Below are positions 1 through 12,254 of a DNA stretch of 12,254 nucleotides, one piece after another. The notes under the pieces are model-generated. The model made no database searches, was not told the origin of the DNA, and was given only the letters and a program-made list of their open reading frames with translations. Each line of letters begins with the position of its first letter. The first letter of the stretch is position 1. The position numbers were made by a program, and so were the translations under genes. The DNA comes from Chloroflexota bacterium (GTDB taxonomy: Bacteria > Chloroflexota > Ktedonobacteria > Ktedonobacterales > Ktedonobacteraceae): NCBI GenBank assembly GCA_005881995.1, contig VBHV01000615.1, positions 1 through 12,254 of the forward strand, in the 5' to 3' direction.

Positions 1-864
1 GAATTCATCATGCCAACGGTGGTCATGGAGGATGGACATCCCATCGCTGTGGTCAAAGCGGGGGACGCGCTCATTCATTACAATTTCCGGCCCGACCGCG
101 CGCGCCAATTGACCAAAGCCTTCGTTCAGCAAGAGTTGCCCCCGCAGGCAGAGGGAAAGTTTAACCGGGGGCCGCGCCTGCAAGACCTGGCATACGTGAT
201 GATGACGGAATATGAAGAGGGATTAGACGCGGATGTGGCCTACCGTGCCGACGAGGTGGAGATGCCCTTAGCGCGCGTCATCTCCGAACACGGCCTGCGG
301 CAATTTCACACCGCCGAGACCGAGAAGTACGCTCATGTCACTTACTTCATTAATGGGCGGCGCGAAACGCCGTTTCCGGGAGAAGACCGCCTACTGGTGC
401 CATCCCCCAAAGTGCCAACCTACGATCTGCAGCCGGAGATGAGCGCGGCAGGCATCACCGATACCGCCGTCGAACGCATTCGCAGCGGGCAATACGACCT
501 GGTCATTATGAACTACGCCAACGCGGACATGGTCGGCCACACCGGGGTGATCGAGGCCGCCATCAAGGCGGTCGAGGCGGTCGATACAGGCGTCGGGCGC
601 GTCGTTGAGGCAACCCTGGCTATGGGCGGCGGACTGCTCATCACAGCAGATCATGGCAACGCCGAACAGTTGATCGAGTATGACACCGGCAAACCATTCA
701 CCGCGCACACCACCAACCCCGTGCCGCTCTACCTCGTCGTACCACAACTGGCCCAGGCCAGGCTGCGTTCCGATGGTATCCTTGCCGACGTGTCGTCTAC
801 TATTTTGGAAATCATGCAGATTCCACAGCCTAAAGATATGACCGGGCGTTCGTTGATGGTATGA
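1..864 (+). CDS. gpmI: 2,3-bisphosphoglycerate-independent phosphoglycerate mutase, C-terminal part (5' end outside window)
   Basis: GpmI interconverts 3- and 2-phosphoglycerate in cytosolic glycolysis, using two metal ions (usually Mn) in an alkaline-phosphatase-type fold. The frame is open from base 1: the first codons read EFI before the internal Met at 10, matching the family's DEF(I/V)xPTV segment, so the Met is not the start. Visible family signatures, in order, are NFRPDRARQ, HVTYFINGRRE followed by a PSPKVPTYDLQPEMSA block, NYANADMVGHTG (metal-binding Asp and His), TADHGNAEQ (metal-binding Asp-His) and HTTNPVPL. About 287 residues are visible of an enzyme usually slightly over 500. 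The C-terminus looks complete, ending at TGA 862-864. The gene faces the minus-strand KOW gene across a 158-bp gap. The identification is very safe; only the N-terminal part is missing. Confidence 0.97.
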   Translation, partial: EFIMPTVVMEDGHPIAVVKAGDALIHYNFRPDRARQLTKAFVQQELPPQAEGKFNRGPRLQDLAYVMMTEYEEGLDADVAYRADEVEMPLARVISEHGLRQFHTAETEKYAHVTYFINGRRETPFPGEDRLLVPSPKVPTYDLQPEMSAAGITDTAVERIRSGQYDLVIMNYANADMVGHTGVIEAAIKAVEAVDTGVGRVVEATLAMGGGLLITADHGNAEQLIEYDTGKPFTAHTTNPVPLYLVVPQLAQARLRSDGILADVSSTILEIMQIPQPKDMTGRSLMV

Positions 865-942
865 TAACGAGCGCTCCCGCCCTGGAATCCCTACTGCTGA
901 GAAACACCAGGTTTTTCGCGGATTTTTAACCTCAAATCCCAT

Positions 943-1000
943 GTAAGTTATCCACACATTCAATAGAAACATGTGGATAACTTACTACAGGTGTGGATAA
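943..1000. promoter_or_regulatory. Cluster of three perfect DnaA boxes with a 14-bp inverted repeat
   Basis: Three exact copies of the DnaA box TTATCCACA lie within 53 bp: 948-956 on the plus strand, and 972-980 and 992-1000 on the minus strand. The first two are embedded in a longer perfect inverted repeat, GTAAGTTATCCACA (943-956) against its complement at 972-985, with a 15-nt loop. The third box stands outside the repeat. The cluster sits between the 3' ends of two convergent genes, so it is not an obvious promoter operator. By established knowledge such a cluster binds the initiator DnaA. By inference it could be a DnaA titration or reactivation site, or part of an origin, although no dnaA, dnaN or strong AT-rich unwinding element is seen here. 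The hairpin could also help terminate the two converging transcripts, but it has no T tract. Confidence 0.75.
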
Positions 1001-1022
1001 GCAACCCCGCTCGACAGGCCAA

Positions 1023-1997
1023 TTACCCGATTCTTTCCAGGTTCATCAGTGGCACAATCAGCCTGGAGCCATCCGCCAGGCGCAATCTCGCCGCTCGCGC
1101 GTATACGCCGGAGAGGAAAACATGCTGGTGCGCGAAGAAATGTTCTATCTGACCTATCTCACCCTCGTACATACCCGCACTCACACGTACCTGTGAATCC
1201 AGCAGCAGTGTGGGATCGGGCGATTCCGGCTGCCAGTTCTGTTGCGCTTCTTCCACCGGTAAGGAGATAACGAGTTCAGGGTACATAGTATAACGTACCG
1301 AAGTAACGCCGGAGATCAGAGCTACCGAACCGTTCCGCTGGCTCAGCGCCTGCATAGTTGTCTCAGGCATCGCCATCGTGCCAGGACCCTCGGTAAAGAG
1401 CAGCGTCAAGGGCGGAAGTTTAGCCTGCGCCATATCGACATTGACGCTGTTCAACAGGTCGAGCATATCGACGCCTAAAAAGCTTTCCAGGTCACGGGTC
1501 GTAATACTACTGGCCACGACGCCCACCACTCCCGAATTGATGGCCTGCCTCAGCAATGCAGCATCTACAGGGCCAGGAATCACCAGGATTGCGCCGGGCG
1601 GCATTGGCAACGGAGACGATGAAAGCTGATACGCATTGGAGGGTTGCCACCATGTAAGTACACCCACAGCCTGCTGTCCCGCGCCAATCTTCCCCCCAAT
1701 AATGGAGGCGCGTGTCTTAATGACCACTCCTCCACGACGAGTAATCTCCACCACCTGGCCACGCAGACCGGCACGGGCGATAACCGGAGGAATAGGGGTA
1801 GCAGGAGGATTTTGTTGCATCTGAGTCTGAGCAGTTCTACCATACCCAATTTTTTCCAGGCGGAGAACAGCTTGATCCGGCAGCACATCCTGTCCCACCT
1901 GCACCAGCGGAATCGCCCTCGTCTTATACCCAATAGCGCGGCGTTCCCACTCAATCTCCATCTGTGTCACTACCGGCCACCCGGAGGGATAGACCAT
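1023..1997 (-). CDS. KOW-tailed protein of unknown function, downstream of mutL
   Basis: A soluble-looking protein of 324 residues with no membrane segment or signal peptide. Residues about 72-114 form a glycine- and valine-rich beta segment (LRGQVVEITRRGGVVIKT), compatible with a small barrel. Residues about 136-180 look like an alpha/beta unit (ILVIPGPVDAALLRQAINSG, then DLESFLGVD). Residues about 195-250 contain LTLLFTEGPGT. Residues about 268-322 resemble a KOW fold (VRVSAGMYEGEIGQIEHF, then LRLADGSRLIVPLMNLERI). The ATG at 1997 is preceded by AGGTGG (2002-2007) four bases upstream. A promoter at 2061-2089 and the mutL terminator at about 2151-2187 suggest separate transcription from mutL, though the genes are adjacent and co-oriented. 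I believe similar proteins neighbour MutL-like genes in other Chloroflexota, but this is from memory. The function is not known. Confidence 0.85.
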   Translation of the reverse strand: MVYPSGWPVVTQMEIEWERRAIGYKTRAIPLVQVGQDVLPDQAVLRLEKIGYGRTAQTQMQQNPPATPIPPVIARAGLRGQVVEITRRGGVVIKTRASIIGGKIGAGQQAVGVLTWWQPSNAYQLSSSPLPMPPGAILVIPGPVDAALLRQAINSGVVGVVASSITTRDLESFLGVDMLDLLNSVNVDMAQAKLPPLTLLFTEGPGTMAMPETTMQALSQRNGSVALISGVTSVRYTMYPELVISLPVEEAQQNWQPESPDPTLLLDSQVRVSAGMYEGEIGQIEHFFAHQHVFLSGVYARAARLRLADGSRLIVPLMNLERIG

Positions 1998-2060
1998 AGC
2001 TCCACCTGCCTTTTACCATATTTTTCCCTGTGCCCAGCACCTTTTCTAATGACCACATGC

Positions 2061-2089
2061 ATTATAAGCGATTCCACAAGCAGAGTAAA
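2061..2089 (-). promoter_or_regulatory. Sigma-70-type promoter for the KOW-tailed gene
   Basis: On the minus strand TTTACT (2084-2089) is followed by a 17-nt spacer and a perfect TATAAT (2061-2066). Transcription would begin near 2054, giving a leader of about 57 nt before the ATG at 1997. The promoter lies just downstream of the mutL terminator, which supports independent expression. The -10 is perfect; the -35 matches four of six. Confidence 0.6.
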
Positions 2090-2150
2090 AGACCCGGTAA
2101 TAAAGTCCATCCTTAAGGGTGCACGGTTGGATGGTAAACCTCAACCATTC

Positions 2151-2187
2151 AAATCAAAAAATAATACCGCGCAAAATGAGCGGTATT
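2151..2187 (-). terminator. Rho-independent terminator after mutL
   Basis: Read on the minus strand, the stem AATACCGC (2187-2180) pairs with GCGGTATT (2170-2163) around a 9-nt loop, and is followed by ATTTTTTGATTT. This is a classic intrinsic terminator about 75 bp past the mutL stop. A further imperfect inverted repeat, 2203-2214 against 2240-2251 (10 of 12 pairs), lies between the stop codon and this hairpin and could add 3' structure. Confidence 0.7.
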
Positions 2188-2262
2188 TGCACACTATTTC
2201 AACCCCCCTGCACCGCACGACCAGGCACCACCTCAAACAGGTGCAAAGGGGTCTGGTAATTT

Positions 2263-4137
2263 CTACGCTCCCATCACCTGCATCCACTGCAACAGCCTTG
2301 CCTGCCGCTCAGCCTCATTCGTCGAAAATGTCAGCGGCCTGCCGCGCGCATCGATGATCAGACCTATCAGGCCACCATCGATCTCCTCGGCGGCGCGTGC
2401 CCTTTCACCCGGTCCCAGCCCGACATCGGCGGTGGGAGCGGGATAGAGCGTCAATAAGGCTTGCTCGTTGAGGCGTAGGGGGATGATTTCAATCGAGCCG
2501 GTCATGACTTCAGCCGTCACCTGGCGCCCATTGCTATACTCAACCCCGACGCGAATAGCTGCCTGGCCGGAGGGTAAATCGCCGAATGGCACCACGCAGG
2601 TACCCAGGCGATGCATCACCGCGTCGTTTTCATTGACCTGCACCGCCGCGATAGGCGCAACGGTGGCAACTGCACCAAGCTGCGAGATAAGCATGGTTCG
2701 ATCCAGCACCAGCGAAGTCACGCCTCGCGGTTGCAGCGCATCTAGCAGCATCAATGCAGCCTGCCCAAATTTGGGCGCTTGCGAGAGAACGCCGCCGGTC
2801 GCTAAGATCAAATCAGCATCAAACGGGCCGAAACTATCCTGCCCGGTTGCCTCTTTAGTGAGGATGATGGCTTCACGCGCAAATGCCTGGATAATCTGGA
2901 GTTCACGATAGCTGGTCGGGAGAGCCTCCGCGTGCAGCATGTGGTTCATCACATACTCGCGCAGCTCATCTTCCGTGATCGTAAAAGGTAGCCAGCGCGC
3001 TATACGCTGCACACCCACCTGCTGTAAAATAGTGCCGAGACCGGTACCCACACCTACGCCAGGGTTTACCAGGGGAATAAAATCGCCACGCTCACCGGCC
3101 ATCATCAAAGTCGTCGTACTCGATCCGGCATCCACTGCCGTGACATTCATGGAATAGTGCTGCGCGAGAAAGCGCACCAGGCTGCTGAGCGAACTGGCGG
3201 TACCAACCGGCACGGCCTGAGACCAGGAACCCAGGGTCGAATAACCAGGAATGCGCTGTATCACGTCACGTTCATACAACGCGCTCGCGGCCATACTGGT
3301 TGGACCAAGCTGCGCCTGTGATACCAGCGTTTCAACACGCGTAACTTCCGCGTAACCGTTGAGCATGCGCCGCACCGCTTCGACAAACTGCGGCGCACCC
3401 GCATACAGCACGGGAAGCTGGTAATCCTCGGCCTGCTGGTTCGCGTCTTGCGCAGCGCGTATAATCAGCTCGCAGGCCTGTTGCAGTGGAGCAGCTCCGG
3501 CTGGACTATCGGTTAATCCAACGATGAGCGCTGCATGCGGATGCAACTCACGCATGCGCCCGATCTGGCGTTCCCACTCCCGATTGATTTGCTCAGGCGT
3601 CCACGCACCGGTATGCATGGGAGAGGTACCCGCCTGGCCCGCGCCTACAGCCGAAAGCGAGTTCGGCGTCGTGGCGGCGAGGTATGCCGGGGCAGGTATG
3701 GTATAAGTTTCAGCGTGAAGACCTGAGGCAGACTGCGCAGCAAGTCCCTCGAGTTCTTGATTCACAGCGCCCAGCACTACCAGGCGCATTGGACCACCAA
3801 TACTGATCGTCGAGACAAACAGATCAACGCCGTCACCTGAGGAGTCTTCTGGGAATATGATGTGCCCATCCGCGATAAAGTGACGCCCCGTAATATACTC
3901 GATCTCGCTGATCGCCGAAATAACGCCCCTGGTCACATCTTCATAAGGGGCGGCAACGGTCGTAGGCGCTACACCGCGCGCCATGAGGCGATATTGACCC
4001 TCCACAAGGCCAAGCAGCGACACTTTGGTAAAGGTAGTACCGCAATCTGCCACCAGGATCGAACTGGCGGACGCCGGATTCTGATTCTGGCTGCTAGTCG
4101 AAGCTGGTCCTTCCCCCAGGTACGGTTCTGTCTGCAT
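2263..4137 (-). CDS. mutL: MutL-type ATPase (glutamate mutase MutL family, ASKHA fold) with C-terminal extension
   Basis: A protein of 624 residues. In clostridia MutL accompanies coenzyme-B12-dependent glutamate mutase and is thought to act as an ATP-dependent repair or reactivation factor. The ASKHA ATPase fold shows in the phosphate-1 loop VADCGTTFTKVSL (about 29-41), a second loop VDAGSSTTTLMM (about 335-346) and LATGGVLSQAP (about 445-455). The usual family length is about 460 residues, so the last 110 or so (from VVPFGDL to GLIIDARGRPL) form an extension. The start at 4137 is chosen over 4191 because AAGGA (4146-4150) lies 8 nt upstream and because the longer start would overlap the preceding gene. 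That gene ends 22 bp upstream, so the two are probably one operon; a terminator follows at 2151-2187. No glutamate mutase subunit is present. This MutL is unrelated to the mismatch-repair protein of the same name. Confidence 0.88.
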   Translation of the reverse strand: MQTEPYLGEGPASTSSQNQNPASASSILVADCGTTFTKVSLLGLVEGQYRLMARGVAPTTVAAPYEDVTRGVISAISEIEYITGRHFIADGHIIFPEDSSGDGVDLFVSTISIGGPMRLVVLGAVNQELEGLAAQSASGLHAETYTIPAPAYLAATTPNSLSAVGAGQAGTSPMHTGAWTPEQINREWERQIGRMRELHPHAALIVGLTDSPAGAAPLQQACELIIRAAQDANQQAEDYQLPVLYAGAPQFVEAVRRMLNGYAEVTRVETLVSQAQLGPTSMAASALYERDVIQRIPGYSTLGSWSQAVPVGTASSLSSLVRFLAQHYSMNVTAVDAGSSTTTLMMAGERGDFIPLVNPGVGVGTGLGTILQQVGVQRIARWLPFTITEDELREYVMNHMLHAEALPTSYRELQIIQAFAREAIILTKEATGQDSFGPFDADLILATGGVLSQAPKFGQAALMLLDALQPRGVTSLVLDRTMLISQLGAVATVAPIAAVQVNENDAVMHRLGTCVVPFGDLPSGQAAIRVGVEYSNGRQVTAEVMTGSIEIIPLRLNEQALLTLYPAPTADVGLGPGERARAAEEIDGGLIGLIIDARGRPLTFSTNEAERQARLLQWMQVMGA

Positions 4138-4159
4138 CTCCACTATCCTTTTTCTGTAA

Positions 4160-5158
4160 CTACAGGTGGAACCATTCGCGAATGGTATCAATAATGCTGC
4201 GTTTGGCAGGTTTAGCTCCAGCCCGGTTCACCTGATTTCCCGAATTCACTGGCGTTCTCTGACCAGCGTTATAAGCATCTGCCGACATGCCCGGAAACTG
4301 GATTGGAACTGGACCCTGGGCGTAATTGCCGCCTGGATACCCTCCTCCATATCCACCCTGCCCGCCCTGGTATACCCCCGGTCCCCCCGAATAACCAGCA
4401 GGCATCGCACCCTGCTGCATTGGCTGCCCGCCAGTGTTTGGTATTGCGGTTGGTGATTGAGGAGGAACATTCTGGAAGTTCTGTTGTGGTTGTACTCCAA
4501 AAGGAGTCGGCTGAGCGGGATATGAAGGCGCTCCTGATGCCACTCCCAACATCGAAGAAAAGATAGTGGCCGCGGCTTCGCTTTGCTCTTGCGGCGCCAT
4601 CTCTGCGCGAGGGCGACTGGGCACACGGATACTCTCAACGCGACCCGACGAGGCCGGTACATTACTCCCCGGCGGTGTTCCTTGTGGCTGACTATCCGCA
4701 TTACGCAGCCAGGCCGGCAAGGCATTCATATCAATCAGTGACCCGGCGGACAGGTTGCTATTTGAACCTCCCTGCCCCGGTTGTCCAGGTTGAGCCGTAT
4801 ACCCCTGTTGCCCTTCGCGCAGCCAGCTCGGCAACGCGTTCATGTCGAGCAATGATGCTGCGGACAGGCCAGCCCCGCTGTCTCCACTTCCCGGCGCAGC
4901 CTGGGAGGGTGCCCCTTGCCATGTTGATTGGGCTATTTGACCCGGCTGACCCTGTTGGCTCGGCTGGTTCAACTGGTTCGGTTGATTTGTCTCTCCTGGC
5001 CGCCCTTGCCATCCAGACATCCAACTCGGCAGCGCCTGTGGATCTACCAGGTCTTGTGCCGACATCAAGCGTGGCGGTATCTCCGCGTCAATGCGCCCCG
5101 ACTGCGCCTGCTGTGGAGCATCAAAGGAGGCGGATGCGCTTCCGGACCAGTTCTGCAT
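4160..5158 (-). CDS. C-terminal fragment of the zinc-ribbon/LPxW-repeat protein (downstream of a frameshift)
   Basis: This frame continues the gene that starts at 5649, after a one-base frameshift near 5180-5189. Its first ATG (5158) lacks a ribosome site, and the frame upstream of it reads GQPSQQPP, the same linker style. It holds three copies (residues 32-47, 98-113 and 136-151) of a 16-residue motif of form (L/M)SAxxL(V/L/I)DxxALPxW(L/M). The linkers are rich in Gln, Pro, Gly, Ser and Asn and look disordered; a Gly/Tyr-rich stretch (YQGGQGGYGGGYPGG) follows. The protein ends in a basic, amphipathic segment, KRSIIDTIREWFHL. No membrane segment is seen. The stop lies 22 bp before mutL, implying co-translation or at least co-transcription. 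The role is unknown; a scaffold or recruitment protein is a guess from the repeats and disorder. Confidence 0.75.
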   Translation of the reverse strand: MQNWSGSASASFDAPQQAQSGRIDAEIPPRLMSAQDLVDPQALPSWMSGWQGRPGETNQPNQLNQPSQQGQPGQIAQSTWQGAPSQAAPGSGDSGAGLSAASLLDMNALPSWLREGQQGYTAQPGQPGQGGSNSNLSAGSLIDMNALPAWLRNADSQPQGTPPGSNVPASSGRVESIRVPSRPRAEMAPQEQSEAAATIFSSMLGVASGAPSYPAQPTPFGVQPQQNFQNVPPQSPTAIPNTGGQPMQQGAMPAGYSGGPGVYQGGQGGYGGGYPGGNYAQGPVPIQFPGMSADAYNAGQRTPVNSGNQVNRAGAKPAKRSIIDTIREWFHL

Positions 5159-5649
5159 AGGCGGTTGCTGCGATGGCTGCCCGGTGGGGCTTGTGCCTCT
5201 CCTGGGAAGTACGAACCACTTCCCGGCCCTTGCGCTGCTGGCTGGTTTTCCTGTACCCAGGAAGGGAGAGATGCCGCATCGACCAGTGAACTGGCCGAAA
5301 AACCTCTGGGAGGTGGCATACCGGCATCTGTATTTGGCGCAGGCATAGAAGACGGGCGCGGCGCGCCATACTGACCGCCATTGACATTTTCCGCCATTTC
5401 CGCATGCTCAGGCCGCATCCAACCCGGTAAGTCATCTTCATCAAACAGGTCGGCGGTTGAGAGACTTTCTCCGCTTGACGGTGTACGGGGCCGCTCATTG
5501 GCGCGCAGCGATTCCAGCCAGGTCGGCAGCGCCGGTTGTTCCTGAGCATCCATATTGCCTCTTCCTGAACTGGATACGGGCACTCCACAATTCGAACAAA
5601 TCGCCGCACCAGCAGGGATCTGCTTCCCACAGCGGTTACAAGTAATCAC
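5065..5649 (-). CDS. N-terminal fragment of the zinc-ribbon/LPxW-repeat protein (frameshifted gene)
   Basis: The protein opens with a zinc ribbon, CNRCG...CSNCG (Cys 4, 7, 18, 21), typical of small zinc-binding N-terminal domains. It then has an LPTWL motif (41-45) and two full 16-residue motif copies (63-78, 117-132) in a disordered Pro/Gly/Ser-rich context. The meaningful reading ends near residue 157 (about 5180); beyond it the frame turns into unrelated His/Arg-rich sequence, while the -1 frame continues the same repeat protein to 4160. Adding one base in the CCC (5180-5182) or GGGG (5186-5189) run restores a single protein of about 496 residues. The start is a GTG, with GAGGAG about 5 nt upstream (minus strand), and the zinc ribbon directly behind it supports this choice. 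It is the first gene of the mutL operon. Sequencing error or a true frameshift cannot be told apart here. Confidence 0.78.
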   Translation of the reverse strand: MITCNRCGKQIPAGAAICSNCGVPVSSSGRGNMDAQEQPALPTWLESLRANERPRTPSSGESLSTADLFDEDDLPGWMRPEHAEMAENVNGGQYGAPRPSSMPAPNTDAGMPPPRGFSASSLVDAASLPSWVQENQPAAQGPGSGSYFPGEAQAPPGSHRSNRLCRTGPEAHPPPLMLHSRRSRGALTRRYRHA

Positions 5650-5764
5650 GTTTGCTCCTCACTTTCGCCAGGCCTTGACATGCGTATCTACATACTAGGC
5701 CTCTACCCATCCTGCCAACGCGGGCGCGTTCAACCCTATAGCAGGACGAAAGAAGAATGATGTG

Positions 5765-5793
5765 AGTGTACCATGCTTTATTTCGCTTGACAA
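5765..5793 (-). promoter_or_regulatory. Sigma-70-type promoter for the zinc-ribbon/mutL operon
   Basis: On the minus strand TTGTCA (5788-5793) is followed by a 17-nt spacer and TACACT (5765-5770). A TG one base before the -10 makes it an extended -10 element. It matches five of six bases at -35 and four of six at -10. The predicted leader before the GTG start at 5649 is about 110 nt. Confidence 0.5.
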
Positions 5794-5815
5794 TGCGTTA
5801 GACCTACACGATAAG
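5787..5815 (+). promoter_or_regulatory. Candidate plus-strand promoter overlapping the divergent one
   Basis: A perfect TTGACA (5787-5792) is followed by a 17-nt spacer and GATAAG (5810-5815), which matches four of six at -10. It would transcribe toward the DUF92 gene with a long leader of about 240 nt. Its -35 occupies almost the same bases as the -35 of the minus-strand promoter, so the two would compete for polymerase. The long leader and weak -10 keep confidence low. Confidence 0.35.
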
Positions 5816-6062
5816 ACATATTGGTATGATACAATACACACGACACGCCACTACAAGGCACATTTCCGTTTCTCCAAAAGTACTAGATCTACTGGTCGTT
5901 ATGGCTAGATATCATGGGGAACTTCCCTTGTAGATACTTTTCCTGGCCCTCTCCTTCAACATGCCATGGCCCTGTTCGGAAGCAAGGCCTTCACTAGAAT
6001 AAAACTGGCATTATCAGCATTCTGTAACACTTTGCACACAATTTTCTCATGAGGTACTGCTT

Positions 6063-6500
6063 ATGGCTAGAAAAATGTTCGTACAAGTCGCCACTCAAAA
6101 ACCAAAAGCGCGGTTTTTACTGGGCTTACTCTTCAGCAGCAGCGTTGCGCTGGCTGCTCATCGCCGTCACTCCCTTAATTCCAGTGGAGCGCTTGGCGCA
6201 ATAACCAGTGGTACGACGATTGTTACGATGGGAGGCTGGTCGTGGGGTCTTTCGCTGATCTATTTCTTCATCTCATCCAGTCTGCTTTCACATTTTCGCG
6301 AGCAGGACAAAGCGCGAGCCGCCGCCGATAAATTCAGCAAGGGTGCTCGCACTCGCCTACGGCCTGACGCGTTCATTATGGGCGCGCAGGCTACTGAAAG
6401 CTGGATTTACCGGCGCGCTCGCTGCTGCCAACGCCGACACCTGGGCCACCGAGCTGGGCGTGCTCAACTCGTCACCGCCCCGCTTGATCACCTCCGGTAA
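6063..6500 (+). CDS. N-terminal fragment of DUF92 membrane protein (gene interrupted near 6340)
   Basis: The first 94 or so residues are the start of a DUF92-family integral membrane protein. They include hydrophobic segments at about 17-32 and 44-74 (GALGAITSGTTIVTMGGWSWGLSLIYFFI), then the loop FREQDKARAAADKFSKG. GAGGT (6052-6056), 7 nt before the ATG, supports this start. DUF92 proteins include plant VTE6 phytyl-phosphate kinase, so a CTP-dependent polyprenol-type kinase role is possible but unproven in bacteria. After FSKG (about 6340) the frame leaves the family, and the following family sequence is read in another frame from about 6343. From memory of the family, roughly a dozen residues of a loop resembling RRDxxQVLANGG are missing at the junction. 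So this is the 5' part of a broken or misassembled gene; its last 50 residues are shadow. Confidence 0.72.
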   Translation: MARKMFVQVATQKPKARFLLGLLFSSSVALAAHRRHSLNSSGALGAITSGTTIVTMGGWSWGLSLIYFFISSSLLSHFREQDKARAAADKFSKGARTRLRPDAFIMGAQATESWIYRRARCCQRRHLGHRAGRAQLVTAPLDHLR

Positions 6501-7323
6501 ACGTGTTGCGCCAGGCACATCGGGGGGTATCACCTTGCTGGGAACAACGGCTTCGTTCCTGGGTGCGCTCTCCCAGGGTCTCTGGTTCTGGATGTTGCAA
6601 GGGTTTCGCAAATCGCTGGCAGCGCTCCCACTTATCGGCCTCACCGGCGGCATGGCCGGCAGCATCTTCGATAGCTTTCTGGGAGCCACAGTACAGGCAA
6701 TGTACTACTGCCCCACGTGCCAATCCGAAACCGAGCGGCGCATCCATCGCTGCGGCACGAAAACCACTCGCCTGCGCGGCATTCGTTGGATCAACAATGA
6801 TACGGTCAATTTCCTGGCAACCGCGCTTGGAGGAGCCGTGGCTATGGGCCTGGCACCCATTTTTCTACTTATCACCCCTTCCTGGCGCCCACGGCGTGCT
6901 GCCGTTGCAGGACTTGCCGCAACAGTTGCCTACAGCATTGCTATGGAGGGGGATATGTCACTCACAGGCAGCCGGTTCAGCGATGTACGCTTTATTGAAG
7001 GGCTTCTCCCAGGACGCGATCAATCGCGTTCCAACGCGTGGTTGCTGGCATGGATAATCCACCTGCTGAACGGGGTGATGCTGGGCGAACTCTACGCGGC
7101 GATCTTCAAACGTTTCTTGCCGGGGCCGAACTGGTTGAAAGGGGCTATTTTCGGTGAGTTGTTCATTGTCTCGGCGTGGTGGCTAACCCCGCTTGCCGAC
7201 AAATATCATCCGATGATTAAGAGCGGGGAACTACCTCGACTCGCCAACCGGACCGCTTTTTTCCAGAACATTGTGCGTCACCTGGTCTTTGGGTTAACGC
7301 TGGGTTTACTCTACAAAGAGTAA
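6343..7323 (+). CDS. DUF92 membrane protein, main part, fused to an extra C-terminal membrane domain
   Basis: This frame carries the conserved body of DUF92: ANADTWATELG (29-39), PGTSGGITLLGT (57-68), and GGMAGSIFDSFLGA (102-115). It also has the insert CPTC (123-126) with Cys 137, then WINNDTVNF (149-157), seen in many bacterial members. A separate region of about 145 residues (180-326) follows, with hydrophobic segments near 185-200, 233-252, 266-284 and 309-323; I do not recognise it. The listed start is a GTG without a ribosome site, so it is not a true start: the gene begins at 6063 and is interrupted near 6340. A palindromic repeat lies in frame at 7012-7036 (residues 224-231). The stop is TAA 7321-7323, convergent with the DUF4870-type gene 28 bp away. 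The DUF92 body is clear; the biochemical role is not. Confidence 0.78.
   Translation: MLALAYGLTRSLWARRLLKAGFTGALAAANADTWATELGVLNSSPPRLITSGKRVAPGTSGGITLLGTTASFLGALSQGLWFWMLQGFRKSLAALPLIGLTGGMAGSIFDSFLGATVQAMYYCPTCQSETERRIHRCGTKTTRLRGIRWINNDTVNFLATALGGAVAMGLAPIFLLITPSWRPRRAAVAGLAATVAYSIAMEGDMSLTGSRFSDVRFIEGLLPGRDQSRSNAWLLAWIIHLLNGVMLGELYAAIFKRFLPGPNWLKGAIFGELFIVSAWWLTPLADKYHPMIKSGELPRLANRTAFFQNIVRHLVFGLTLGLLYKE
7012..7036 (-). repeat. REP-like palindrome, copy 1, inside the DUF92 gene
   Basis: GGACGCGAT, CA, ATCGCGTTCC and then AACG match 22 of 25 bases of the element at 10646 and are identical over the first 18. The copy lies in frame within the C-terminal membrane region and encodes GRDQSRSN. 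Its tail is the most degenerate of the family, with the CTACA foot changed to AACG. Confidence 0.7.
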
Positions 7324-7332
7324 AGGGAAGCC

Positions 7333-7360
7333 TGGACATAGGAGCGCGCTCCTACGTCCA
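7333..7360. repeat. 28-bp palindrome between convergent genes
   Basis: A perfect 16-bp palindrome, TAGGAGCGCGCTCCTA (7339-7354), is extended by TGGAC/GTCCA arms across one mismatch. It overlaps the stop codon of the minus-strand gene. On the minus strand it reads GTAG followed by GAGCGCGCTC, the same foot-plus-hairpin layout as the other repeats here. It may serve as a bidirectional terminator stem, though no T tract follows. Confidence 0.6.
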
Positions 7361-7819
7361 CCTGCCAAACGTGCCCTCTATCATCCTGCCTACAAACGGC
7401 AGGCGATAACCAGGGCGGAAAAATGCCATAATAGTCAGCCAGACAGCCAGCAAAATCATTACCCACACGATTACACTGGCAAGCAACCCTAACCCCAGGC
7501 TTGTGAAAAAGCCCAGCACCCAGATGCCGCCCAGTAGCCATTTCAAGAACACCACCAGCATATAGACTATTGATAGCGATCCAAAGACCACTGCCGATTG
7601 CAGGGCATGCCAGCGCACATTACGGTTCTTTTCTATAAAGAAGACAACCAGGCTCACAAGCCAGCCAAACGGCAATAACCAGCTAAACAATGCTAATATG
7701 CTTGCAAGCAGGTTGATGAGATAGAGCGAAACGCGCTCCAGCTGCTCACTTAAACCAAACGTGGTTGCGCTGCTGCGCGTTGCCGTTCTACCTCTAGTTA
7801 TTCTATCTCTATTCATCAT
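7352..7819 (-). CDS. DUF4870-type small membrane protein
   Basis: A protein of 155 residues with a hydrophilic, Arg/Thr-rich N-terminal tail of about 25 residues. Three hydrophobic blocks follow: LYLINLLASILALFSWLLPFGWLVSLVVFF (a likely hairpin), SAVVFGSLSIVYMLVVFLKWL, and a long final one ending LTIMAFF. The loop FIEKNRNVRWHALQSAVVFG and the tail RPGYRLPFVG are the usual DUF4870 signatures (charged loop, then HAxQS, and a YxLPxxG end). The start at 7819 (or 7816, as two ATGs are adjacent) is preferred over 7918 because GAGGA (7825-7829) lies 5 nt upstream and the extra 33 residues look non-native. Function is unknown for the family. It is divergent from the DUF2156 gene and convergent with DUF92. 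Confidence 0.75.
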   Translation of the reverse strand: MMNRDRITRGRTATRSSATTFGLSEQLERVSLYLINLLASILALFSWLLPFGWLVSLVVFFIEKNRNVRWHALQSAVVFGSLSIVYMLVVFLKWLLGGIWVLGFFTSLGLGLLASVIVWVMILLAVWLTIMAFFRPGYRLPFVGRMIEGTFGRWT

Positions 7820-8174
7820 GATGGTCCTCAATCTTTCTGCATCGTTGATGGCCCAGGCACGTTTGCTACGTCCAGCGGCTCTATGTACTTCTGAACATGT
7901 ATACGAATTTGCCTTCATCTGGTTGCAGTTTACCGCGGTGTGGAGTACTGCACATTCTCCTCAAGAGTGACGAGCTTCACATTTTTTCGGGAAAGTTCCG
8001 CGTAATTCACGCGTCTCTAATAATAGAAGTCTAAAATGGAGATGTCCAGGCGTCTTTCATGATAGAGGCTATGGTATCGGGTGATATGCCCAAAAGAAAA
8101 TGGGACATTTGCCACTGTTAAAATTATCGGTGTTAGCGCATAATAAACAAAAACCATTAAAGGATTATAAACAT
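7820..8174. other. 355-bp divergent intergenic region
   Basis: This gap separates the DUF4870-type gene from the DUF2156 gene. Candidate signals on the plus strand are an extended -10, TG-T-TAAAAT (8116-8124), and CATAAT (8139-8144), both lacking a good -35. Small inverted repeats occur at 7990-7999 (GGAA-AG-TTCC), at 7999-8013 (CGCGT/ACGCG, 5-nt loop) and around 8086-8108 (ATGCCCA against TGGGACAT). None is convincing alone, and I see no additional gene. Confidence 0.4.
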
Positions 8175-9938
8175 ATGTTTTCTCTACAAAAATTCTTTAA
8201 TAACGTTTCTGCCGATAAAGCGCGCACACCTGTGCGTTTTATCATTGGACTGGCTACCGGGTTGGTAGGGATAGCCGATATGCTTTCTGCCATCGTCCCC
8301 AAACTCAACTGGGATATTCTGCTTGGCTCGTACACAAGCGACTTCCCGCAAGGGCCGCAGAAGCTCACCGTCGTCGTCGGCTTCTTTCTGATTATGCTCT
8401 CCTATGGCCTGATGCGTGGTAAGAAGCAAGCATGGGCTATCACCATAGCGCTCTTGATCTTGTCTTTCTTCCTGCATATCAAGCGCGGCGGCTCAGTGCT
8501 GGCAAGCATCATAGCGGTCGCCTTGCTGGTGCTGTTACTGCTGCTGATGCGGTTCTTCCGGGCGCGCAGCGATCCTCCATCGGTGAGGCGTGGCTATATC
8601 GCGCTGATCCTGGGGCTTGGCATTGTAGTTTTCTACACGGTCAACGGTTTTATCATCCTTTATAAGCAGTTTGAGCCGGTGGTCGATCGCTTTGGCATTG
8701 ATGGTGTGCTCCTGCGCCTGGTTACCAATACACACCTGCACCTGCCACAAGACACCCAGGCCTTTCTGCTTGAACGTGCTTTTCCCCTGCTCTGCGTCAG
8801 CGCGGTCCTCTTTGGTATGTTCTCGATTTTGCGCCCGGTCGCCGCTACCCTGTTACCTGATGCAGAGGCACGCCAGAAGGTGCAGCAACACACGCGCACT
8901 TATGGCAAAAACTCGATCTCCTACTTCGCGTTCAGCGAAGAGAAAGCCTACTTCTTTTCATCGTCAGGAAAGTCCGTAGTCAGTTACGTTCTGGAAGGAC
9001 AGGTAGCCGTTGTCGCGGGTGACCCGATTGGTCCCGATAGCGAGATAATCAACGCCATCGAGGAATTTATGGCTTTTTGCCGTGAACAGGACTGGACCAT
9101 CGTCCTCTGGCAGGTACGCGACGATCTAGCCTCAGTCTACCGCTCCCTGGGGCTGCATCTACTAAAAATTGGCGAGGACGCGGTCATCGATACGCAGAAA
9201 TTTACGCTCAAAGGTGGAGCGATGGCGAACGTGCGCTCCAGTGCGAAACGCGCCGAAAAGGATGGAGTCAGCGTCACCTTCTATCGTGGAACCGTGCTGG
9301 ACTACGAGCAGCGCGTGCAAATGGAACACATCTCACAACAATGGCTGGCACAAAAAGGTGGAAGCGAGATGGGCTTTAGCATGGGACAGTTCGATCCAGA
9401 GGGAGACCCGGAACAGATTACCGCGCTGGCAGTCGATAGCACCAATCGCGTTCACGCCTTCGTGACCTTCATCCCCATCTATGGGCGACAAGGCTGGGGG
9501 CTGGACCTGCTGCGCCGTGCCGACCGCAGCGCCCCAGGCACTATCGAGTTGCTATTGGCACGCTCTATCGAGTACCTGAAAAACAATGGAGCCGCCATGG
9601 TGAGCCTCGGTCTCGCGCCGTTAAGCAATGCGAATAACGATGATACTACGTTGTTGGATACCAGCATCGACTTTCTGACCCATCGTTTCGGCAACTTGAG
9701 CAAGAGCCAATCGCTTTTCAACTTCAAAAAGAAGTTCCAGCCAACCTGGGAAAGCCGTTACCTGGTCTTCTCCAACACACTGACCCTCCCCAAGATCGGC
9801 TGGGCGCTCTACAAAGCCCACCAGGAGGACGCGACCTTCTTCAAGACGCTGCGCCGCTCCGTTCTAGGCTGGCAAAAGAGTTACGAGACCGTCAAAGAAA
9901 AGATTGCAACAGGGGCGTTGGAAGCCCTCAAGGCATAA
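8175..9938 (+). CDS. DUF2156 / MprF-type aminoacyl-phosphatidylglycerol synthase, short membrane form
   Basis: The protein has 587 residues. Six hydrophobic segments (about 19-41, 64-80, 86-102, 106-126, 139-163, 198-219) are followed by a cytosolic domain from about 240 to 560. That domain resembles the GNAT-like DUF2156 region that transfers Lys or Ala from aminoacyl-tRNA to phosphatidylglycerol. Supporting motifs are YFAFSEEKAYFF, VVAGDPIGP, MANVRSSAKRAEKDGV, GFSMGQFDPEGDP and LGLAPLSN. Classical MprF has about 14 helices and a flippase domain; here only six precede the catalytic part, so flipping may be absent or done by another protein. ATG 8175 is preferred to 8100: AAAGGA lies about 10 nt upstream, and the extra 25 residues of the longer form look unlike a membrane-protein start. 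The amino acid and lipid specificity cannot be read from sequence. Confidence 0.85.
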   Translation: MFSLQKFFNNVSADKARTPVRFIIGLATGLVGIADMLSAIVPKLNWDILLGSYTSDFPQGPQKLTVVVGFFLIMLSYGLMRGKKQAWAITIALLILSFFLHIKRGGSVLASIIAVALLVLLLLLMRFFRARSDPPSVRRGYIALILGLGIVVFYTVNGFIILYKQFEPVVDRFGIDGVLLRLVTNTHLHLPQDTQAFLLERAFPLLCVSAVLFGMFSILRPVAATLLPDAEARQKVQQHTRTYGKNSISYFAFSEEKAYFFSSSGKSVVSYVLEGQVAVVAGDPIGPDSEIINAIEEFMAFCREQDWTIVLWQVRDDLASVYRSLGLHLLKIGEDAVIDTQKFTLKGGAMANVRSSAKRAEKDGVSVTFYRGTVLDYEQRVQMEHISQQWLAQKGGSEMGFSMGQFDPEGDPEQITALAVDSTNRVHAFVTFIPIYGRQGWGLDLLRRADRSAPGTIELLLARSIEYLKNNGAAMVSLGLAPLSNANNDDTTLLDTSIDFLTHRFGNLSKSQSLFNFKKKFQPTWESRYLVFSNTLTLPKIGWALYKAHQEDATFFKTLRRSVLGWQKSYETVKEKIATGALEALKA

Positions 9939-9957
9939 GTCAAAGCAGGGCCTAATG

Positions 9958-10123
9958 ATCCGTAGGGGCGAGGGTGGATGATGTGGGGTTGGGAGGGCCT
10001 TTATGGTCGCCCGCGTGCCTGTTCATCTGGCTTGAATCTTGCGGCAACACGATCGCCCCCCACCCCACGGGCGACCATAAAGGCCCACACCACCCCACGT
10101 CCTCCGCTCTCGCCCCTACGGAT
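9958..10123. repeat. 166-bp inverted-repeat element (MITE/BIME-like)
   Basis: The outer arms are perfect for 15 bp: ATCCGTAGGGGCGAG (9958-9972) and its complement at 10109-10123. An inner perfect 19-bp repeat, GGGCCTTTATGGTCGCCCG (9995-10013), pairs with 10068-10086; the arm stretches between are similar but imperfect. The loop is 54 nt (10014-10067). Both outer ends carry GTAG just inside the terminus. It starts 20 bp after the DUF2156 stop. The plus and minus reading frames across it are mirror artefacts of the repeat and not genes. Confidence 0.8.
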
Positions 10124-10165
10124 GTTGATGAGCCTTTTCTTAGGTTGATGCCTCTTGGGCGACTC

Positions 10166-10195
10166 TTGCGATCCCCCTGGTACCAGACGTATAAT
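10166..10195 (+). promoter_or_regulatory. Sigma-70-type promoter for the small membrane gene and probably holA-midA
   Basis: TTGCGA (10166-10171), an 18-nt spacer and a perfect TATAAT (10190-10195) precede the ATG at 10243 by a leader of about 40 nt. The -35 matches four of six bases. No terminator is visible between 10605 and holA, so it may also serve the downstream genes. Confidence 0.55.
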
Positions 10196-10242
10196 GAATG
10201 TAGCACGCATTCAAAAAACACCTTTCGGGAGGCTTTACAATA

Positions 10243-10605
10243 ATGGGCGGTCCTGCATTAATGATCGTTGACAATCAAGGTATATTCCTGGCCGACCTCT
10301 TCGGTCTCATTCTCTCACTCCCCATCGCGCTTTTCCTGGCTTTCTGGATGAGCGCAGTAAAGAGGCGCAGAGTCGTGGTGTTTGGCGCATTTGTCGGCAG
10401 CTTTATTGGCTTCCTTGTTATCCTGGGCTGGGTAGGAACACTTATTTACGATACCGTATTACCCGGCGCCAATCCCGGCTCAACCTTCTTTGGCTCGCTG
10501 CTGATCAACTCGGCTCTCGGTCTGGTTTTTGCCATCCTCTCCGATCTGGTTGTCGCGCGCCTGACTGCTCCTGACTACAGGAGACCTGCCCCCATCCATG
10601 AATAG
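10243..10605 (+). CDS. Small membrane protein of unknown function
   Basis: A protein of 120 residues with three predicted membrane segments: about 13-35 (GIFLADLFGLILSLPIALFL), 44-69 (VVVFGAFVGSFIGFLVILGW) and 83-106 (FGSLLINSALGLVFAILSDLVV). A KRRR cluster after the first helix suggests that loop is cytoplasmic. GGGAGG (10227-10232) lies 10 nt before the ATG, a slightly long spacing, and a good promoter stands upstream, so the gene is likely real. I do not recognise the family; the Gly-rich helices recall small GlsB/YeaQ-like membrane proteins, but the match is not firm. It precedes holA by 109 bp, a gap that holds two palindromic repeats. Confidence 0.65.
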   Translation: MGGPALMIVDNQGIFLADLFGLILSLPIALFLAFWMSAVKRRRVVVFGAFVGSFIGFLVILGWVGTLIYDTVLPGANPGSTFFGSLLINSALGLVFAILSDLVVARLTAPDYRRPAPIHE

Positions 10606-10645
10606 CGGGACAAGATGCGATTAATCTAATACCCACAAAAGAATC

Positions 10646-10670
10646 GGACGCGATCAATCGCGTCCCTACA
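10646..10670 (-). repeat. REP-like palindrome, copy 2
   Basis: GGACGCGAT, CA, ATCGCGTCC and then CTACA. The 9-bp arms are perfect. On the minus strand it reads TGTAG followed by the hairpin, the arrangement of REP elements. It is identical to copy 3, 10 bp further on, in direct orientation. Confidence 0.85.
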
Positions 10671-10680
10671 TAACTGAACT

Positions 10681-10705
10681 GGACGCGATCAATCGCGTCC
10701 CTACA
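10681..10705 (-). repeat. REP-like palindrome, copy 3, abutting the holA ribosome site
   Basis: An exact 25-base duplicate of copy 2, separated from it by 10 bp. It ends one base before the holA Shine-Dalgarno GGAG (10707-10710), so a transcript hairpin would stand directly before the start codon. Confidence 0.85.
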
Positions 10706-10714
10706 TGGAGAGAT

Positions 10715-11776
10715 ATGCTCTATCTCCTGCACGGCAACGATGAATTCACCTGTCGAGAACAACTGAAGAAGCTGCGACAGCAGGGGGATTACGGCTACAA
10801 TAACGATACCTACACCGGCGGTGAGGTGCCACTGGCAACTATCACCGCAACTTGTGATACCTTCCCTTTCCTCACCGATGCGCGCCTGGTCGTGCTTGAA
10901 GGATTACCAAAGAAACGTAAAGGCGAAGAATCCCTTCCAGTACCCGCGGAGAACGTAGAAGCAAAGGACGCCGCCGTTGCCGTCGCTGCCCCGGCGAAGC
11001 CGAAAAAAGGCAAAAAAAGCGGCAAAAGCCAGGCAGAATCTCGCGCTGGGTTTGAAAAAGGATTGGCTGAATATATTCCCCGGCTCCCCGAAACGACAAC
11101 CCTGATCGTGCTGGTCGATGAAGAACTTACCGCCAGCAGCTCTCTGCTCAAAGCAGTGCAGGAACACGGCAAAGTCATCCAATGCACCCTTCCCAGGGGT
11201 GCCGCGCTGGAAAGCTGGATCAGTAAGCGGGCGCAGAGTAGAGGCGTCAAGATCACCTCTGAAGCAGCATCACTGCTGGCAAACCTCATCGGTAACCAGC
11301 TGCGCCTGCTGGCAAACGAACTCGAAAAGCTGGCAACCTATGTTGGGGAGCGCGCCATCATCAATGTAGACGACGTGCGCAAGCTCTCTGCGCAGGTGCA
11401 GGAGGCGCGTATCTTCGATCTGACCGACGCACTTGCCCAGCGCAATCGCAAACAGGCGCTCGATTTGCTCCACGACCTGCTCGCAGATGGAGAGCCACCG
11501 CTCAAACTTATCAGCACCATCACCTCACAGGTGCGTTCGCTCCTGCTCGTCAAAGAACTGGCAGATGACGGCCTGCGTGTGCAGCAAATTGTAGCCGCGA
11601 CGGGTATGGCTCCCTTCGTCGCGGAAAAAGCCCTGCGCCAGATAGGAAAATTTTCAGCGCTCCAGTTGGAGGGTGCCTATCGCCAGTTGCTGGCAACCGA
11701 CGCCGCCCTCAAACGCAGCCGCATGACCCCCGAAATGGCCTTAGACTTACTGGTCGTCAATTTCGGCAACGCCTGA
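10715..11776 (+). CDS. holA: DNA polymerase III subunit delta
   Basis: HolA is the clamp-loader subunit that opens the sliding clamp during replication. The length of 353 residues fits the family. The N-terminus LYLLHGNDEFTCREQLKKL is the usual (L)YLLxGxDEF opening. Later hallmarks are FPFLTDARLVVLEGL (50-64), IPRLPETTTLIVLVDE (121-136), LANLIGNQLRLLANELEKL, a VEARIFDLTDAL-like segment (VQEARIFDLTDALAQRN) and the C-terminal collar helices ending TDAALKRSRMTPEMALDLLVV. Residues about 66-112 form a Lys/Ala-rich low-complexity insertion between the alpha/beta strands. GGAG at 10707-10710 lies only 4 nt before the ATG. One REP-like copy sits just before this site and another 2 bp after the stop. 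It lies between an unknown membrane gene and midA, probably co-transcribed. Confidence 0.93.
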   Translation: MLYLLHGNDEFTCREQLKKLRQQGDYGYNNDTYTGGEVPLATITATCDTFPFLTDARLVVLEGLPKKRKGEESLPVPAENVEAKDAAVAVAAPAKPKKGKKSGKSQAESRAGFEKGLAEYIPRLPETTTLIVLVDEELTASSSLLKAVQEHGKVIQCTLPRGAALESWISKRAQSRGVKITSEAASLLANLIGNQLRLLANELEKLATYVGERAIINVDDVRKLSAQVQEARIFDLTDALAQRNRKQALDLLHDLLADGEPPLKLISTITSQVRSLLLVKELADDGLRVQQIVAATGMAPFVAEKALRQIGKFSALQLEGAYRQLLATDAALKRSRMTPEMALDLLVVNFGNA

Positions 11777-11778
11777 TC

Positions 11779-11803
11779 GGACGCCATTGATCGCGTCCCT
11801 ACG
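11779..11803 (-). repeat. REP-like palindrome, copy 4, between holA and midA
   Basis: GGACGCCAT, TG, ATCGCGTCC and then CTACG. It differs from copy 2 at four of 25 positions, one of which makes a single mismatch in the stem. It starts 2 bp after the holA stop and ends 6 bp before the midA ATG, thus filling almost the whole 33-bp gap. Confidence 0.8.
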
Positions 11804-11809
11804 TGAAAC

Positions 11810-12254
11810 ATGACACATCCAGCACTACAGCAGCTCATCATTGAACGCATCCAACGCGAGGGGCCACTTACCTTCGCAGAGTATATGCGTATGGCGCTCT
11901 ACGAGCCTGGCTATGGATATTACGTCACAGGCGCGCCTAAAATGGGATGGCAGGGAGATTATTTCACCAGCACCGATGTATCCACCCTCTTCGCCAACTG
12001 TATGGGGCGACAACTTTACCGCATGTGGGAATCACTCAAACGTCCTACTCCATTTCTGGCGCTGGAACAGGGCGCGGGACGCGGAGACCTGGCTGCAGGC
12101 GTGCGCGCATGGGCTGCAAAAGAAGCGCCGGACTTTTCCACCGCGCTCGATTACCGTGTGTCAGATATGCGCAGCGGGGAGGACGCGCTAAATAGCGTCT
12201 CTACAGGTAAGACGAAAAGTGAAGCGTCAGATGCGCCTGAGCCATCGGTGATCC
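11810..12254 (+). CDS. MidA/NDUFAF7-type SAM-dependent methyltransferase, N-terminal part (3' end outside window)
   Basis: The frame is open from the ATG to the last base (148 codons). The opening matches the SAM-dependent methyltransferase family PF02636: a helix LIIERIQREGPLTFAEYMRMAL, then YEPGYGYYVTG, GDYFTSTDVSTLFANCMGRQL, and the SAM-binding LALEQGAGRGDLAAGV. In mitochondria the homologue NDUFAF7 methylates an arginine of complex I subunit NDUFS2 and is needed for assembly; in bacteria the target is generally unproven. An in-frame TGA at 11804 forbids an earlier start; the ATG has only a weak ribosome site, because copy 4 of the repeat fills the space. From about residue 125 (GEDALNSVSTG) the sequence is encoded by another repeat copy (12181-12205), where the family would normally continue into a conserved strand and helix. 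Confidence 0.85.
   Translation, partial: MTHPALQQLIIERIQREGPLTFAEYMRMALYEPGYGYYVTGAPKMGWQGDYFTSTDVSTLFANCMGRQLYRMWESLKRPTPFLALEQGAGRGDLAAGVRAWAAKEAPDFSTALDYRVSDMRSGEDALNSVSTGKTKSEASDAPEPSVI
12181..12205 (-). repeat. REP-like palindrome, copy 5, inside midA
   Basis: GGACGCGCT, AA, ATAGCGTCT and then CTACA match copy 2 at 21 of 25 positions, including the CTACA foot. It is read through in frame and contributes roughly EDALNSVST to the protein. The stem is weaker than in copies 2 and 3. Confidence 0.75.

Follow-up and report, generated by a model that had tools for sequence, protein, structure and literature searches.

GTAG-footed REP-like hairpins in a Ktedonobacterales genome and RAYT-like genes linked to such repeats in relatives

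Repeat copies in the window and the sites they occupy

The stretch of DNA analysed here, termed the window, comprises 12,254 nucleotides from a Chloroflexota bacterium of the family Ktedonobacteraceae (assembly GCA_005881995.1, contig VBHV01000615.1, positions 1 to 12,254 of the forward strand). It carries five copies of a short palindromic repeat, considered here as candidate repetitive extragenic palindromic (REP) elements of the kind mobilised by a REP-associated tyrosine transposase (RAYT). Pfam assigns the genes of the window to phosphoglycerate mutase, MutL (PF13941), DUF92/DUF6789, LPG_synthase_C, DNA polymerase III delta (holA) and Methyltransf_28, the last of which we take to be midA-like. 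The window has no Rfam match at gathering thresholds and no tRNA or tmRNA.

Each of the positions 7012, 10646, 10681, 11779 and 12181 holds a related 24-mer, as a sequence-only reading of this DNA had claimed. The copy at 10646..10669 (minus strand) has a GTAG foot at 10669-10666, a perfect 9-bp stem and a 2-nt loop. It stands in tandem with the copy at 10681..10704 (minus), which also has a perfect 9-bp stem and lies in the same orientation, 35 bp away start to start. Between holA and the next start codon, the copy at 11779..11802 (minus) retains the GTAG foot and has one stem mismatch. The remaining two sit in coding sequence: in the REP-like sequence at 7012..7035 (minus, DUF92/DUF6789) GTTG replaces the GTAG foot and the stem includes one G-T pair, and in the degenerate REP-like sequence at 12181..12204 (minus, Methyltransf_28) several stem positions are unpaired. 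A 9-bp-arm palindrome had been ascribed to every copy; it is found at 10646, 10681 and, with its mismatch, 11779 but not at 12181, while the proposed minus-strand GTAG 5′ foot holds for these same three and not for 7012. The three footed copies bear out the single orientation that had been described; at 7012 and 12181 this orientation is that of the better-matching strand.

A scan of the window for GTAG followed by arms of at least 7 bp returns exactly three hairpins (10669-10646, 10704-10681 and 11802-11779), all on the minus strand; 30 dinucleotide-resampled sequences average 0.17 such hairpins and never have more than 2. The 20-bp palindrome occurs at four places with up to 3 mismatches, compared with a mean of 0.01 per shuffle. 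Mismatches to the 24-nt consensus number 0 (10646), 0 (10681), 3 (11779), 2 (7012) and 4 (12181). Sixty dinucleotide shuffles contain no site at 6 or fewer mismatches, and the closest sites in 258,404 bases of relatives are one at 5 mismatches and three at 6, so all five copies resemble the repeat beyond chance. A weak further match at 10613-10636 (minus), 33 bp before the tandem pair, has 8/24 mismatches, a level at which shuffles yield 0.6 sites each, so that taken alone it is no more than chance would give.

The comparison drew on 47 related genomes, whose placement in Ktedonobacterales is inferred from two record names. G027 is the closest relative among them: window HolA (10715-11776) is 76% identical to that of G027, 70% to that of G001 (recorded as uncultured Ktedonobacteraceae, locus L004) and, in two pieces, 67% and 80% to that of G002 (Ktedonobacter sp. 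UBA10473, locus L025). The tandem pair sits within 109 bp separating the end of a small open reading frame at 10605 from the holA start at 10715, and the 11779 copy occupies most of the 33 bp from holA to the next start at 11810. At 20 loci, drawn from the 44 genomes with a holA match, the exact 9-bp arm is absent from the 150 bp before and the 120 bp after holA in 20/20, a comparison to which degenerate remnants are invisible. The holA-side copies are taken as probable additions on the window's own lineage.

The positions of the repeats, two immediately ahead of holA and one in the gap that follows it, also fit a reading in which the repeats are REP-derived and now kept as RNA or transcription elements, their hairpins stabilising, attenuating or ending messages. 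The 10646 copy, with its T-containing tail, scores like a terminator when read on the minus strand and is one of three such sites in the window; with 1.7 expected, the count is at chance level. The lack of an exact core beside holA in the relatives further means that no role is conserved at these sites. We regard this reading as unlikely, and it does not exclude a mobile origin of the copies.

Simple insertion was considered for the two copies in coding DNA. The 7012 copy replaces most of a coding linker that is also present in relatives, and the linker has 11 residues in the window against 10-12 in the compared relatives (read from 22 of 25 loci). With no net gain in length, simple insertion of this near-perfect palindrome is unsupported at 7012. 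At 12181, one arm of the copy overlaps the codons of a GxDAL motif found at that place in 11/20 relatives' loci, a figure that is no measure of conservation since the search required the motif. A degenerate insertion there is possible, because the variable segment after GxDAL is longer in the window (18 residues) than in the counted relatives (6-13). The DUF92 gene itself is spread over two overlapping frames (6063-6500 and 6343-7323, together 6063-7323), and in several relatives it is a single open frame of about 480-570 aa; judged from the reading frames, the split is a frameshift, genuine or assembly-made.

Footed hairpins and RAYT-like genes in relatives

The palindrome without its tail matches, at up to 2 mismatches, in 30/47 genomes against 0-3 matches per genome for controls, such that genomes with 1-3 tail-free matches are indistinguishable from chance. 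The footed architecture GTAGGGACNNGATNNATCNNGTCC, at up to 1 mismatch, is found in 13/47 genomes and the reversed pattern in 0/47. Strand matches, in which a few double-footed sites are counted on both strands, number 33 in G029, 32 in G002, 18 in G001, 15 in G035, 10 in G042, 6 in G027, 5 in G041, 3 in G011, 2 each in G036, G037 and G038, and 1 each in G026 and G040. The hundreds of copies that the sequence-only reading had named as support are not seen in these 13 element-bearing genomes (1-33 strand matches each), in which the element is dispersed. The usual stem in G001, G002 and G035 is GGACCCGAT/ATCGCGTCC with a C-C mismatch. A stem of a different type, GGGCGCGATNNATCGCGCCC, makes up most of the listed matches in G011 (23) and G012 (37).

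Foot and stem are linked. Six genomes supplied 69 unique elements from 58 loci, counting only those with at least 45 nt of context; 48 are single-footed, 2 carry both feet and 19 lack a foot. The stem is asymmetric in 51/69, and the single foot lies on the C side in 41/41 of those asymmetric stems that have one foot. In G029 the elements also form 12 plus/minus pairs with a start-to-start distance of 108-110 bp and one further pairing at 148. These constant-length inverted pairs are a REPIN arrangement, in which two inverted REPs at constant distance make up one unit. Inverted pairs in G002 and G035 lie at other distances, and two copies in G001 stand in tandem, 37 bp apart.

RAYT-like genes accompany such repeats. 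In Chloroflexi bacterium ANAER1 (L178, the same genome as locus L022) and in Anaerolineae bacterium MGR_bin408 (L179, the same genome as locus L009), a RAYT-like gene has the exact palindrome GTAGGGACGCGATNNATCGCGTCC on both sides. In G029, two of the 12 inverted pairs, with a variant of the stem, bracket the RAYT-like gene of L325, a 178-aa open frame at 1130-1663 (minus) between pairs 890/1022 and 1794/1926. At L215 (G035), a double-foot hairpin, CGACCCAAT/ATTGCGTCG, which shows the C-C mismatch noted above, stands 28 bp from the RAYT-like gene (1489-2058). A RAYT-like gene flanked by the same repeat, which had been named as support, is found with the exact palindrome at L178 and L179 and with a stem variant at L325, and was not seen with the exact stem within the order. 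In G004, the RAYT-like gene of L196 lies within an array (483-2456) of at least 23 footed hairpins of two stem types.

HUH, WQ and NNP positions are common to six aligned RAYT-like proteins. The NCBIfam model NF047646 (curated cut-off 80 bits) scores 77.6 for L178, 76.6 for L179, 64.9 for L325, 51.6 for L215 and 88.9 for L176; it gives some match in 36/47 genomes and exceeds the cut-off in 4/47, with many of the weak matches IS200-sized. The PF01797 cut-off is narrowly passed by L178 and narrowly missed by L179. The L325 and L215 proteins have no Pfam match at E 0.001, and PF01797, which had been suggested as the search handle, consequently misses key genes of the order. A PDB sequence search with the L325 protein returned no match. 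A profile built from the six proteins exceeds 180 bits in G026, G029, G035 and G038, all element-bearing, of which G026 and G038 have just 1 and 2 footed strand matches. The association with element presence has a Fisher value of 0.004 that is only indicative, as the 180-bit line was set after viewing the list, three of the four genomes fed the profile and kinship is uncorrected. Nine of 27 forks in the RAYT tree are starred. The grouping of L178, L179 and L196 is firm (100/99) and that of L325 with L215 is not (88/47), and for this reason no conclusion of co-divergence is drawn.

Movement of the repeats by an ordinary Y1 transposase of the IS200 type, rather than by a RAYT, would draw on enzymes that are common in the order: PF01797 matches occur in 41/47 genomes, many of them about 140 aa long, and one tail-free match in G002 lies about 1 kb from an IS200-type gene. 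However, no footed hairpin of the GGACGCGAT type lies within 900 bp of the gene at any of 30 PF01797 loci (another GTAG hairpin occurs in 5/30), whereas the RAYT-like loci do carry such hairpins. At E 0.001, the proteins of L325, L178, L179 and L215 are matched by NF047646 but not by the IS200 model. We consider the IS200 explanation very improbable. The perfect 20-bp palindrome, present twice ahead of holA, could also be read as a pair of operator sites for a DNA-binding regulator. Against this stand copies inside coding DNA, a one-sided foot tied to the asymmetry of the stem, inverted pairs of constant length, the bracketed RAYT-like genes and absence at the same sites in relatives. The operator reading is rejected as exceedingly improbable on the foot-side test, the holA-site absence and the constant-length pairs of G029.

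With high probability, the window copies are GTAG-type REP elements that a RAYT acting in trans has mobilised within the genome of a member of the Ktedonobacterales (Chloroflexota). This REP/RAYT reading holds by analogy with relatives, where the one-sided foot and the bracketed RAYT-like genes of L178, L179 and L325 support the system proposed from sequence alone. The elements would be short hairpins whose 5′ foot is an unpaired GTAG, and their mobiliser a RAYT, an HUH enzyme with a single catalytic tyrosine, encoded elsewhere in the genome or since lost. The RAYT would recognise GTAG and hairpin on single-stranded DNA and would cut and rejoin it, as TnpAREP of E. coli is described to cleave and rejoin REPs in the available text of PMC6006769. 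Such cutting and rejoining may have placed the copies in the window. We infer RAYT mobility in the window's own genome from the relatives, and the solo, tandem and degenerate state of the copies suggests an old, mostly inactive population.

Several observations weigh against this interpretation. The window holds no RAYT gene, as the sequence-only reading had stated, and the RAYT-like genes seen within the order are never flanked by a stem identical to the window's, which brackets such genes in two other Chloroflexota genomes. All four of L325, L178, L179 and L215 fall under the NF047646 cut-off. Nine of the 13 element-bearing genomes, including G027 and G002, lack a profile match above 180 bits, and G027, the closest relative compared, has 6 strand matches and no match to the six-protein profile. 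The window copies of the five-copy repeat are solo or in tandem in one orientation and never form inverted pairs, the 7012 copy is without net insertion relative to the compared relatives, and no excision or insertion was seen directly.

A second repeat family and the wider spread of the palindrome

The clearest other feature of the window with GTAG near its outer ends is a pair of 56-bp units. The left unit, at 9958..10013 (plus), is GTAG-ended, and the right unit, at 10068..10123 (minus), is inverted and 88% complementary to it. Together they form a 166-bp REPIN-like pair with GTAG near the outer ends and the feet pointing outward. Matches to the stretch 9955-10126 number 32 in G001, 12 in G052, 8 in G002 and one in either of G028 and G029 (5/47 genomes); the counts come from a scoring that covered some but not all candidates, and they include several places on both strands. 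Units of this second family surround RAYT-like genes in two relatives: in L333 (G052) they lie at 895-947 (plus) and 1571-1518 (minus) around a frame at 990-1526, and in L176 (G001) at 684-735 (plus) and 1394-1341 (minus) around a gene at 774-1244. The 166-bp pair in the window probably derives, as a non-autonomous form, from a second RAYT unit.

A search pattern with fixed ends yielded 27 second-family units, which have the constant ends GTAGGGGCGA...GGTCGCC and variable interiors, with a mean G content of 0.54 and a mean C content of 0.15. Four runs of at least 3 G occur in 17/27 units against 10.5 expected after interior shuffling, and the idea of a G-quadruplex was set aside as mostly reflecting plain G-richness.

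The exact tail-free palindrome of the first family extends to at least 118 stretches of public genomes. Among 149 listed matches, grouped by phylum from record titles that mostly denote metagenome bins and may include misbinned sequence, one-sided feet are found in 89/114 from Bacteroidota (with 4 more double), 3/6 from Firmicutes, 14/15 from Chloroflexota outside Ktedonobacter types and 1/3 from Ktedonobacter types; WOR-1 has one double foot in 2 matches, and the remaining groups (9 matches in all) have none. In L192 (WOR-1, 1751-1778) and L193 (Bacteroidales, 1800-1823) the palindrome lies inside a RAYT-like frame, between the HUH and tyrosine parts. The D-A/S-I-x-R-V/I/L peptide, as the repeat would encode it, is present in 82 of 120 listed among 787 relatives of L192.

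Two ideas may be advanced together, as a joint proposal that we hold to be doubtful. The REP palindrome GTAG-GGACGCGATNNATCGCGTCC could have spread near-unchanged between phyla with RAYT genes, since exact GTAG-footed palindromes occur in Bacteroidota, Chloroflexota, Firmicutes and WOR-1 records and RAYT-like genes carry the palindrome beside or inside them. The RAYT of the second family, in turn, may read a G-rich single-stranded structure rather than a simple hairpin, because that family has constant ends around a variable G-rich interior.

Relation to known REP and RAYT systems

A literature search that reached few subscription journals, and mostly titles and the starts of abstracts, found nothing on such repeats in Ktedonobacter and, when aimed at Chloroflexota, little on such elements beyond the accessible part of PMC3733652. 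In its available text, that paper (2013) gives Proteobacteria, Cyanobacteria, Chloroflexi and the PVC group as hosts of GTAG repeats and describes RAYTs with these repeats on their flanks. The suggestion that a REP family would be notable in this lineage is weakened because Chloroflexi were already among these hosts. Novelty is modest: the kind of element was known and the member is new.

A single 12-kb window contains two repeat families with links to RAYTs, and one Ktedonobacterales relative, G029, shows a REPIN-RAYT arrangement. The asymmetric stem sets orientation independently of the foot, and the pairs are of constant length. Some element-bearing genomes have a strong candidate enzyme and others lack one, which permits a comparative test, and PF01797-only searches miss some of these RAYT-like genes.

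Likeness to REPINs lies in the two inverted REPs that form one unit at constant distance, seen in the 12 pairs of G029 and, for the second family, at 9958-10123 of the window. The five window copies differ in not being so paired; head-tail dimers are rare or absent in most genomes according to the text available from PMC3733652.

The enzyme of the relatives is likely, but not strictly, a RAYT of subclass 2.4. In the accessible text of PMC6006769 (2018), RAYT subclasses are patchily spread, consistent with horizontal transfer, and subclass 2.4 is described with the motifs NH[IFV]H, WQ and YIxNNP, a canonical REP whose lowest three stem pairs are G-C, and REPs within RAYT genes. L325, L178 and L179 carry NH[FVI]H, WQ and YI/YV..NNP; strictly, L325 and L178 have all the motifs, L179 has YVINNP and L215 has NHLH. 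Double-foot REPs beside L215 and the patchy spread over phyla are further likenesses to what that text describes. On the other side, the stem base in the window is G-C, G-C, A-T rather than three G-C pairs, and the L325, L178 and L179 frames are without an internal REP.

By its architecture the window element resembles the GTAG REP superfamily, for which PMC3733652 gives 24 family consensuses. An unpaired GTAG stands at one end of 3/5 window copies, and the 9-bp stem and 2-nt loop lie within the reported ranges of 5-13 bp and 2-20. Copies within genes, the association with RAYTs in relatives and Chloroflexi among the host phyla are shared as well, while the dispersed arrangement of the window copies is a difference. 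By the features tested, the window element belongs to the GTAG REP superfamily.

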